64,000 nt of DNA, from assembly GCA_945871425.1 (NCBI GenBank), contig CAMBVS010000006.1:1-64000 (forward strand), read 5' to 3'. A program made the translations under genes and the position numbers. Below, one piece after another: positions 25,252-28,271 of the stretch. Positions within the stretch are counted from its first letter, which is position 1. Each line of letters begins with the position of its first letter. The notes under the pieces are model-generated. The model ran no database searches, had not been told where the DNA came from, and saw nothing but the letters and a program-made list of their open reading frames with translations. Origin of the DNA: Rhizobium sp. Q54. GTDB taxonomy: Bacteria; Pseudomonadota; Alphaproteobacteria; SHVZ01.

Positions 25252-25506
25252 CGGAAATCCTCGTTCAGGTCGGCGGGGTGGAATTCCAGTCGGGCGTGTT
25301 TCTTCGACGACACGCTAGCACCGGGACGGGCCGGCGGTAAGACGTGAGGTCGGGATCGGCTACGAGCCGGCCGGGCGGCGTTCCGGTCGGCGGTCCGGGT
25401 CAGGGGGCGGTCGTGGCCTTCCCGGGAATTGGCTCTGGCCTGGTGTACCGCCGGCGTCGCGTCAACGCTCGGGCTTTAACACCTGCCTTCGGCCGCTATG
25501 GATCGC

Positions 25507-26295
25507 TTATCGCCACAGCGCGCCCTTGCTCGCTTTCACGCGCGTGCGCGCGCGCTTGTCCAGCGCGCTGAAGAATTGGATGCCGGCCTTCTCTTCGATC
25601 TCGTTGACGGTGACCAGATAGGAACTGTCGAGCTTGGCTTTCGGGTAGGGCTTGTTGTCGAAGTAGAACGCCAGCGCGCGCTGCGCTGCCGGGTCGTAGA
25701 CTATCTTGAAGAATCCCTCGGGGACCGCGACCTTGTTGTCGCCGATGGTCTTCGGCTTGGCGCCGTAGATCGGACCGGAGACAACGACCAGCCGCTCGCG
25801 GCTGATGGCCCAGTCGCGCACCCGCGCTTCCAGCTGCGCCCAGATGCCGCGATTCATGCTGGGGCCGTACTGCGGAGCGATATTCGACAGGTAGAACGAC
25901 TCTGCCATCGCCTCTTCGAGCCAGGTGTTGTCGGCGGCCGGCGACATGTGCCCCCGATCGAAGCCGCTTTTGGCGTAGTCGCCGGTGACGGCGCTCTTGT
26001 TGGCCCGGGCGACGTCGGGATCCGGGACGAAGGGCCGGTTGTCGCGCGTCACGTTCTTGGCGAAGCGCTCGGGCGTGAGCACCTCGAGCACCCAGGCCGG
26101 CGTCCGATGCCCGGTGTGATAGGAGACCAGGTATCCGGTCCGGCACAGCACCATGTGGTCGTCGTCGCTCGACCGGGTCTCGGGTTCGCCGGTATCCGCG
26201 ACCAGCGCCGCGCACTCGCCGAGTCCGGCGGCGTGGCCGCCGGGGCCGAAGAGGAGGAAAAAGAGAAGGAGGAAGACGAGGATCCGTGACGGCAT
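25507..26295 (-). CDS. Secreted DNA/RNA non-specific endonuclease (NUC1 type)
   Basis: A 262-residue protein with a signal peptide (MPSRILVFLLLFFLLFGPGG, mature start near residue 24) and the beta-beta-alpha-metal nuclease fold. The catalytic DRGH box is at 113-116 in SGFDRGHMSPAADN, with H116 as general base. NTWLEEAMAESFYLSNIAPQ carries the metal-binding asparagine, and VVVSGPIYG is the next conserved strand. It should cut DNA and RNA in the periplasm or outside the cell, for nutrient scavenging or against foreign DNA. No inhibitor gene is obvious. It is the last gene of a three-gene operon after two small membrane proteins, 11 bases from the second. Upstream in-frame codons to 26529 lie within that gene and are rejected. 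Confidence 0.92.
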   Translation of the reverse strand: MPSRILVFLLLFFLLFGPGGHAAGLGECAALVADTGEPETRSSDDDHMVLCRTGYLVSYHTGHRTPAWVLEVLTPERFAKNVTRDNRPFVPDPDVARANKSAVTGDYAKSGFDRGHMSPAADNTWLEEAMAESFYLSNIAPQYGPSMNRGIWAQLEARVRDWAISRERLVVVSGPIYGAKPKTIGDNKVAVPEGFFKIVYDPAAQRALAFYFDNKPYPKAKLDSSYLVTVNEIEEKAGIQFFSALDKRARTRVKASKGALWR

Positions 26296-26306
26296 GGCGC
26301 TCTCCG

Positions 26307-26642
26307 CTACTTGGGAAGCCCCTTGGAGATGAGAAAGCTGCCGCCGCTGATGCCGAGCAATCCGAGGACACCGTTGGGAATCTCGACGAAGGTGCCGGCC
26401 TCGAGCGAGAGCACCACGAACAATCCGCCGATCAGGAAGGTGAACAGAAGCAGCTGGAACCGCGAGATGCTGGCCTTGCCCGGAACCGGCGGCATGCCCG
26501 GCATTGCGCCGGCGGGCGGCGACTCGCACAGCATGTCGGATAGATCGACCTTGGTCAGCTTCTGCAAGACGATGACGGCAAACGCCGTGAACACCGCGAG
26601 CATCACCGCATAGCTCGCCAGCGAATAGATTTGGGGCTGCAT
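26307..26642 (-). CDS. Small membrane protein, related to the next gene upstream
   Basis: A 111-residue protein with three likely membrane helices (about 8-27, 62-83 and 90-108) and a Pro/Gly-rich linker, PPAGAMPGMPPVPG, between the first two. The second helix is introduced by SISRFQLLLFTFLIGGLF, and the end reads GLLGISGGSFLISKGLPK. The same layout and similar motifs occur in the neighbouring 109-residue protein (SPERVQLLIASLF and ALGGSNALYLVSKIG), so the two are probably ancient duplicates. I know no function for either. It lies one base after that gene and 11 bases before the nuclease, so they are clearly co-expressed. Confidence 0.75.
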   Translation of the reverse strand: MQPQIYSLASYAVMLAVFTAFAVIVLQKLTKVDLSDMLCESPPAGAMPGMPPVPGKASISRFQLLLFTFLIGGLFVVLSLEAGTFVEIPNGVLGLLGISGGSFLISKGLPK

Positions 26643-26643
26643 G

Positions 26644-26973
26644 TCATGTCCTCCCGGTCAAGGTTCTGCCGATTTTGGAAACGAGGTACAGCGCGTTGCT
26701 GCCGCCGAGAGCGGCCACCAGCCATGTCGATGGCTCGGGCAAGCGGGCTTCCGCGCGGACGGTCTGGAACTGGCTGAGGGTGTCGAAGCCGTAGGCGGCC
26801 ATGGCAAACAGGCTGGCGATCAGAAGCTGAACGCGCTCTGGCGACGGGGCGCCGTTGCGATCGCTGGAGAGCATCCCGGACGTGCGGATCTCGCCGCGCA
26901 GGAGGCGCATGAAGACCATGGCGAACAGCACGCCATACACCGCATAGATCGTGGCGGTGACGTACCACCTCAT
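26644..26973 (-). CDS. Small membrane protein, first gene of the nuclease operon
   Basis: A 109-residue hydrophobic protein that I do not recognise. The predicted membrane helices are about 4-24 (YVTATIYAVYGVLFAMVFMR), 48-68 and 84-102. Between helix 1 and 2 it has a polar segment with TSGMLSSDRNGAPSPERVQL. Its similarity to the next protein in the layout 'S.eR.QLL' then 'GG..al.lvSK' suggests they form a hetero-oligomer. The start is the ATG at 26973. Upstream, 26974-27218 is a 245-base gap without a gene that I can support. In this operon the nuclease is secreted and these two stay in the membrane, so they might help anchor, export or guard against it, but that is conjecture. Confidence 0.72.
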   Translation of the reverse strand: MRWYVTATIYAVYGVLFAMVFMRLLRGEIRTSGMLSSDRNGAPSPERVQLLIASLFAMAAYGFDTLSQFQTVRAEARLPEPSTWLVAALGGSNALYLVSKIGRTLTGRT

Positions 26974-27218
26974 GGCGGGTCCACGACGTCGGCCTCGCCC
27001 GCGCCGAGAGGCGGCTCGCAGCTATGTTCGGTTTCGGCACCGGCGGAGAGCGCAGGCGATCGCGCGGGGCCGGAAGCGGCCGCCGCCGGATACGTCGCGG
27101 GTCGAGATACCGAAGGCGCTCGCATGGCCGTCCCCCAACAGCCCGACCGCAGAAATACAACCTTGTGCGACTACAGGCAAGTCGAATCGCAACCGGGGAC
27201 GTGACGCGAGTCCGCAGC

Positions 27219-28271
27219 CTACGCCGGCAGCGTCAGCCGGTAGAACCGGGCGGCGGTGCCCGAGAACAGGTCCGTGGTCTCGGCGGCGCCGGCGCCCCTC
27301 GCCAGTTTCTTGCAGGCGTTCCAGAATACCGGGTAGCTGTAGGAGCCCTTGTCGACCGGGAAGTTGCTCTCGAACATGCAGCGGCTGGCGCCGAAGGCTT
27401 CGATGCAGGTCTCGACATAGGGCCGCCACGCCGCCGCCAGCTCGTCGGAGGAGGGCGGCTCGGCCTTGCCCTCGAAGCCGAAGCCGTTGAGCCGCATGCC
27501 GAGTCCGCCCAGCTTCGCATGGACGTTCGGGCACTTGGCGAGGTTGCGGATCGCGGTCGACCAGGTCTCGAAGATCTCGTCGCGGCGGCCGGCATAGGGA
27601 CCAAGGCCGAGCGGGCCGCCGGCGTGGTTGATCACGATCTGCGTCGCGGGAAAGGCGCGGGCGAGGCCGGTGAGATCGTCGATCTGTGGATGGTAGAGCC
27701 AGGCATCGAAGCTGAGCCCCATCGTCTCCAGCACCGAGAAGCCCTCGCGGAAGCTGCGCGTTCCCATCAGGCCTTGCGGCATCTCGAAGGCGGGGTTGCG
27801 CAGGCCGGGGAAGTCGTCCCAGGCGGAGATGTGGCGGATGCCGCGGAAGCGATCGGTGATGCGCGCATGTGCCTCCAGCACGCGGCGGACCCCGGCGCCG
27901 AGGCGGAGGTCGGCATAGCCGACGATGCCCTCGCAGATCCGGGTCTTGCCGTAGGTGCCGCTGGCGCTCATCGCGGCGACGCCGTTGACGAATTCGGTCT
28001 CGCCCACCGGACGCAGCTCCTCCGGCCCGTCGGCGCGATGCATGGAGCGGGCCTGGAGATAGACGGTGGAGACGATGTTGTGGCCGCTGTTCAGGTCTTC
28101 CAGCAGCTCCGGCAGCAGATAGCGCCAGCCCGGCCGGTCCCAAAGATGGTGGTGGGGATCGACGATCGGCAGCCCAGGCTCGAGGATCTCCTCCTTCCGG
28201 CGGTCCAGCCATTCCTGGCGGACCGCGAGGTAGGGGGCAAGGGCGGCGGGCGGTTTGGCGGCGGCGGTCAA
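27219..28271 (-). CDS. Amidohydrolase family 2 (TIM-barrel) metal-dependent hydrolase
   Basis: A 350-residue amidohydrolase of the decarboxylase/lactonase (PF04909-type) group. It has the metal motif LPIVDPHHHLWDRPG near residue 35, RGIRHISAWDD, FDAWLYHPQIDDL, VINHAGGPLG with the histidine that closes the barrel, and CMFESNFPVD near the end, typical of this family's terminal aspartate-containing strand. Members hydrolyse lactones or decarboxylate aromatic acids in the cytoplasm. The substrate cannot be stated. It appears to be monocistronic or part of a loose run with the SDR gene upstream (48 bases away, same strand). The ATG at 28271 is the first in frame and gives the usual N-terminal length. 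Confidence 0.92.
   Translation of the reverse strand: MTAAAKPPAALAPYLAVRQEWLDRRKEEILEPGLPIVDPHHHLWDRPGWRYLLPELLEDLNSGHNIVSTVYLQARSMHRADGPEELRPVGETEFVNGVAAMSASGTYGKTRICEGIVGYADLRLGAGVRRVLEAHARITDRFRGIRHISAWDDFPGLRNPAFEMPQGLMGTRSFREGFSVLETMGLSFDAWLYHPQIDDLTGLARAFPATQIVINHAGGPLGLGPYAGRRDEIFETWSTAIRNLAKCPNVHAKLGGLGMRLNGFGFEGKAEPPSSDELAAAWRPYVETCIEAFGASRCMFESNFPVDKGSYSYPVFWNACKKLARGAGAAETTDLFSGTAARFYRLTLPA

Follow-up and report, generated by a model that had tools for sequence, protein, structure and literature searches.

The window, that is, the whole stretch of 64,000 nucleotides of Rhizobium sp. Q54 DNA analysed here, carries a compact locus in which two small membrane proteins (P1 and P2) precede a nuclease (NUC) (Table 1). 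P1 and P2 are separated by 1 nt and P2 and NUC by 11 nt. A codon-usage gene caller picked exactly the same three open reading frames, and the order, sizes and gaps given in the first-pass annotation, which had been made from the letters of this one stretch, were correct; all three genes lie on the minus strand.

Table 1. Features of the P1-P2-NUC locus (positions in the window)
Feature	Position	Strand	Remarks
P1	26644-26973	-	109-aa small membrane protein, first gene
P1 motif SPERVQLL, N-terminal to helix 2	26821-26844	-	Family consensus PERxQLL
P2	26307-26642	-	111-aa small membrane protein, P1 paralogue
P2 motif ASISRFQ	26454-26474	-	S58, R61 and Q63 invariant in 43 sequences
P2 helix-3 motif GISGGSFLISK	26322-26354	-	G97, S99 and K107 invariant
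NUC	25507-26295	-	262-aa exported DNA/RNA non-specific endonuclease; Pfam PF01223
NUC predicted Sec signal peptide, ~22 aa	26230-26295	-	From sequence, judged by eye
NUC catalytic DRGH motif (His116)	25948-25959	-	N148 and E156 also invariant in family
Stretch missing from three congeneric genomes	25345-27219		31-52 bases there instead; edges vary by up to ~20 bases between comparisons

NUC matched the Pfam family Endonuclease_NS (PF01223) with E = 2.4e-51 and a score of 175 bits (curated cut-off, 23). The residues H116, N148 and E156 were invariant in 35 nuclease sequences, the N..E motif was present in 37/37, and one cysteine was near-invariant. A hydrophobic N-terminal export signal was found in 35/35 of the paired nucleases tested. 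The Pfam match and the export signal bear out the proposal that the third gene encodes an exported NUC1 nuclease. When the nuclease family profile was compared with solved structures, the top matches, and hence the closest solved relatives, were EndoG, EXOG and Serratia nuclease. In Pfam, NUC consists of the NUC1 domain only, without a delivery domain, and members of its family are frequent on plasmids. Secreted NUC1 nucleases are classic nutritional or eDNA enzymes and are commonly regarded as free-standing and digestive. With its PF01223 domain, its His/Asn/Glu motif and its predicted export, NUC appears to be a member of the NUC1 family of DNA/RNA non-specific endonucleases. What sets it apart from Serratia-type enzymes, which are not known to depend on a paired membrane partner, is the dedicated pair found ahead of the gene at all intact loci of its clade (see below).

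The first-pass annotation had proposed that P1 and P2 are a duplicated pair, with alignment by profile comparison set beforehand as the test. Profile-profile comparison (42 P1 and 43 P2 sequences) aligned the two families over 110 columns with a probability of 99.2% and E = 1.9e-19; at the level of sequence, then, P1 and P2 are genuine duplicates that have diverged. The short motifs that had been read as common to both proteins turned out to be the conserved ones, namely S..R.Q ahead of helix 2 and, within helix 3, a G-S...K stretch. AlphaFold2 predicted three helices in each protein, comprising residues 2-25, 45-71 and 83-106 of P1 (pLDDT 90.2) and residues 3-31, 59-82 and 90-108 of P2 (mean pLDDT 80.8). 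Averaged for P1 and P2 over 31 loci, Lys and Arg residues numbered 3.6-4.2 per protein on the first linker plus the C-terminus and 0.1-0.8 on the loop between helices 2 and 3. Because this charge pattern is positive-inside, both proteins are predicted to be oriented N-out/C-in.

P1 and P2 gave no match above cut-off in Pfam, PADLOC, PHROGs or NCBIfam, and the 43 P2 members gave only scattered weak matches to Pfam. Profile searches of the PDB yielded no convincing match for either protein. Foldseek returned nothing at E <= 0.001, either for the P1 and P2 models against the PDB or for the P1 model against viral models. In IMG/VR, neither P2, P1 nor the P2 alignment detected a relative, and P2 queries of plasmid and phage records detected no stand-alone pair. 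A prophage lysis cassette was dropped as a candidate because there were no viral relatives. The nuclease is of a known kind; the membrane pair dedicated to it constitutes an undescribed family.

With P2 alone as the query, the trio was also recovered from an unrelated alphaproteobacterium. For a wider scan of one genome per species, we used a three-member P2 alignment (two trio members and one pair-only member); the nuclease was not used in seeding. This P2-seeded scan yielded 54 loci. It relied on two conserved peptide patterns and therefore missed distant pairs. The loci were classified by gene calls together with a six-frame search, which recovered small genes that were otherwise missed. 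P1, P2 and the nuclease followed one another on one strand in 34/54 loci, the nuclease lay upstream (NUC-P1-P2) in 2/54 (L079 and L082), and 18/54 had the pair without an adjoining nuclease, with a varying partner or none; among these 18, contig ends interrupt L067 and L086, L070 starts within the region, and the P2 of L077 is truncated. By record title, 43/54 loci are from Alphaproteobacteria; these 43 include all 34 ordered trios. The median gaps were 13 nt between P1 and P2 (43 loci) and 16.5 nt between P2 and the nuclease (32 loci). Since the order recurs in 34 of 54 loci that were found without the nuclease, it goes beyond chance.

The pair tree was built from concatenated P1 and P2 of 52 loci (35 with the nuclease downstream, i.e. 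the 34 and the window, 2 with it upstream and 15 with none), leaving out L070, L077 and L086. All 35 nuclease-downstream pairs fell on one side of a branch (support 99/93; 200/200 bootstrap trees), and inside this group there was no intact pair without a nuclease. The genetic tie between nuclease and pair that had been suggested from the window thus holds across genomes, in the 34 ordered loci and in the retention of the nuclease by all intact pairs of the clade. In the nuclease tree, which took in 37 paired and 28 free sequences, the data were compatible with the 35 downstream-type nucleases forming one clade (p-AU 0.497), near the base of which lay three free nucleases (L111-L113). Joining the nucleases of L079 and L082 to that clade was rejected (p-AU 1e-43). 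These two nucleases come from another branch and stand in the opposite gene order; therefore, pair and nuclease have met at least twice. The distance matrices of the three proteins correlated with r of 0.58-0.68 against a permutation maximum below 0.30 (30 loci), a correlation that joint inheritance of three adjacent genes alone would also raise.

Among 372 genomes of the class, 35 bore the nuclease, and a stand-alone pair occurred in 2 of those 35; the same 372 genomes contained stand-alone pairs in 3 and long double-module frames in 7. Loci were available for 30 of the 40 nuclease places; 28 of these were non-trio, with no pair in flanks of ~1.5 kb or less on each side. The free nucleases of the tree were drawn from this sample of 372 genomes. 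The first-pass annotation had named, as a finding that would speak against it, a nuclease occurring mostly without the small proteins. This is so for the nuclease family as a whole (pair in 2/35 nuclease-bearing genomes), but not within the nuclease clade of the trio, where 3 free nucleases stand against 35 paired ones.

Five congeneric genomes had neither the pair nor the nuclease. The flanking genes, for a substrate-binding protein and an amidohydrolase, were adjacent to each other in G002 and G003. By alignment, G002, G003 and G004 had 31, 50 and 52 bases, respectively, where the window has ~1,875-1,902 bases containing just the trio; these are 3/3 of the assessable congeners, G001 and G005 being outside the comparison. 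With 31-52 bases in place of about 1.9 kb, the congeneric site is empty, so the trio was gained or lost whole. The insertion edges showed no terminal inverted repeats and no clear target duplication, just a 10-base GC-rich match. The genus of G361 was alike, with a nuclease match at E <= 1e-30 in G361 only (1/11). The substrate-binding protein encoded beside the cassette (window:23650-25251) is one of a very large set of paralogues, six related genomes having 35-53 matches each at E <= 1e-50. As a separate observation, the reversed locus L082 (L082:2401-9199) lies near a putative serine recombinase and a UmuC-type polymerase (assigned by eye), is followed by a lipoprotein-like protein and an 83-aa protein, and is perhaps part of a mobile element.

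Chance adjacency of unrelated neighbours would fit the fact that the whole nuclease family mostly lacks the pair (2/35 nuclease-bearing genomes). It is already contradicted by the comparative data (the same order in 34/54 loci, a clade of single origin in which the nuclease is fully retained, a second pairing that arose independently, and insertion of the three genes together); we dropped this candidate and regard it as scarcely credible. The finding of the trio is real, and stronger than a sequence-only reading could know. That P1, P2 and NUC would act as one functional unit is well supported by these comparisons of sequence.

The trio loci lie in ordinary chromosomal surroundings. When 146 genes from 31 trio loci were compared with PADLOC at E <= 1e-10, we obtained scattered matches to 13 families with at most two members each. 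Because these family matches are scattered, the trio lies outside defence islands; its neighbours are not defence genes, and membership of a defence island was dropped as a candidate. The upstream regions showed no enrichment of LexA, CtrA, PhoB or RpoN motifs over single-base shuffles.

These surroundings also suit nutrient scavenging, in which the nuclease would digest environmental nucleic acid and the pair would be a small heteromeric carrier taking up or handling the products. Secreted NUC1 enzymes are classically nutritional, and the layout resembles that of paired small multidrug transporters, which are two adjacent paralogous membrane proteins of ~110 aa with the four-helix SMR fold. 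P1 and P2, however, are predicted to have three helices rather than four, and match neither Pfam nor any transporter family. Moreover, 45 upstream regions contained no PhoB box, no nucleotidase or uptake gene recurred beside the trio among the neighbouring genes listed, and the pair is also found without a nuclease. We consider scavenging unlikely.

The P1/P2 module also occurs twice in longer proteins, many of which have a signal peptide or an N-terminal ectodomain. Eight of these double-module proteins were scanned, and no Pfam name was returned for the module. On plasmid p155_1 of Bradyrhizobium sp. 155 (L157:2688-7017), a double-module protein is encoded between a PycC-type cyclase plus a prokaryotic E2 and a Tle1-like phospholipase. 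The cyclase matched the PADLOC PycC model with E = 1.1e-87; the double-module protein itself had no PADLOC match. The operon resembles a variant of Pycsar that includes a membrane component without a name. It is through this long relative that the trio resembles Pycsar, from which it differs in having no cyclase and in that PADLOC was blank for all three proteins. Five other plasmid relatives had no Pycsar-type operon, so this context was seen in one locus only. One of the five, on plasmid p2 of Cupriavidus pinatubonensis (L166:845-12683; annotated as Ig domain-containing), has a patatin-like phospholipase, an N-acetylmuramidase and a metallophosphoesterase as neighbours. In two contigs of one genome (L030 and L031), a fibronectin type III domain was seen beside module copies at the contig ends, perhaps one split gene.

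In two Geobacteraceae loci (L087:7506-9245 and L088:7551-11122), an N-acetylmuramoyl-L-alanine amidase gene comes after the pair, at gaps of 3 and 29 nt. In L088, a caspase/hydrolase protein comes after the amidase, and in L078 the pair is followed by a metallophosphoesterase. Such hydrolase partners near pair-only and double-module loci were recorded without a control; they are suggestive and serve as a lead only.

The nuclease-less pairs bear directly on a toxin-immunity arrangement, in which the nuclease would be an antibacterial toxin and the membrane pair would protect the producer. A nuclease beside small genes is a common layout for such systems. Because the pair also occurs without any nuclease, immunity is the least likely of the earlier guesses, and it was dropped as a candidate. 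The long double-module relatives argue in the same direction, as do the Sec signal of the nuclease and its lack of a delivery domain, and immunity to nucleases is not usually provided by membrane proteins. We judge this arrangement very improbable.

The Geobacteraceae loci are relevant to another alternative, holin-like release. Here P1 and P2 would form a regulated membrane lesion, holin/antiholin-like, that frees the enzyme or lyses the cell, and the nuclease would clear the released DNA. Two adjacent tiny membrane proteins do lie upstream of an enzyme, as small membrane proteins lie ahead of a hydrolase in holin/endolysin and related secretion cassettes (PMC9527704). The amidases behind both Geobacteraceae pairs have no evident signal peptide, as in such a cassette, and some sub-threshold viral fold matches were named holin. 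Set against this, the cargo of holin-dependent export is described as being without a signal peptide (PMC9527704), whereas all 35 nucleases tested have an export signal, in the trio a Sec signal. The trio includes no endolysin gene, and the empty-site comparison leaves no further gene. The pair had no holin family match in PHROGs, Pfam or NCBIfam and no significant viral fold match, and the double-module relatives bear extra N-terminal regions or ectodomains. Release of this kind seems improbable to us.

The reading to which we incline, though only tentatively, is a P1-P2 platform in the inner membrane that cooperates with a periplasmic nuclease at the envelope, most likely as a barrier to incoming DNA. 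P1 and P2 would form a hetero-oligomeric complex in the inner membrane, with three helices each in the N-out/C-in orientation, and might represent the split form of the double module that elsewhere is one long protein. Sec would export the nuclease to the periplasm, where it would cut nucleic acid at the envelope, at or with the membrane complex. P1-P2 would hold or control it on the periplasmic side. We infer both the complex and its docking or control of the nuclease; the role as an anti-DNA barrier is speculative. It would act on DNA crossing the periplasm, be it by phage infection, transformation or conjugation. The barrier is proposed because of the patchy, unit-wise distribution of the trio, the nature of the enzyme and the one relative in an immune operon. 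Counting against this reading are the absence of defence genes around the trio loci, the restriction of the Pycsar-type context to a single locus, the 18/54 pairs without an adjoining nuclease and the classic nutritional or eDNA role of secreted NUC1 enzymes.

A broader version, which we find doubtful, would make P1/P2 the two-gene form of an unrecognised membrane platform with interchangeable destructive enzymes, an envelope defence or conflict module of which the trio is the version that destroys DNA in the periplasm. The enzyme would then be the nuclease in Alphaproteobacteria and the amidase in Geobacteraceae, and in the third form a fused protein would work with a phospholipase under a Pycsar-type cyclase.

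For a barrier, a close comparison is SNIPE, an anti-phage nuclease consisting of one membrane protein with a GIY-YIG domain and a DUF4041 facing the cytoplasm (PMC13190303). SNIPE sits at the inner membrane, at the point of entry of foreign DNA (PMC13190303), and a similar placement is predicted for the trio. The trio differs in that its nuclease is of the NUC1 type, is predicted to be periplasmic and is encoded apart from two proteins of three helices each, with neither DUF4041 nor GIY-YIG. A search of the literature found no description of the trio, and since few subscription papers were covered this absence is weak evidence; the statement of the first-pass annotation that no named system has this content agrees with it, as none was found.

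That the trio is kept together in many bacteria suggests an undescribed envelope device that destroys nucleic acid. Cultured carriers exist among the scan loci (Phenylobacterium kunshanense, Rhizobium halophytocola, Ancylobacter radicis and Caulobacter isolates), and tests are therefore feasible. All intact members of the clade have a two-subunit membrane partner in a clean cassette, and with at least two meetings of pair and nuclease this points to an unnamed membrane-linked nuclease function. If the trio blocks incoming DNA, it would be a periplasmic equivalent of SNIPE and similar membrane-bound nucleases. If the pair is instead a carrier or a release device, this would be the first role for a membrane module that is present in several phyla and has no Pfam entry.
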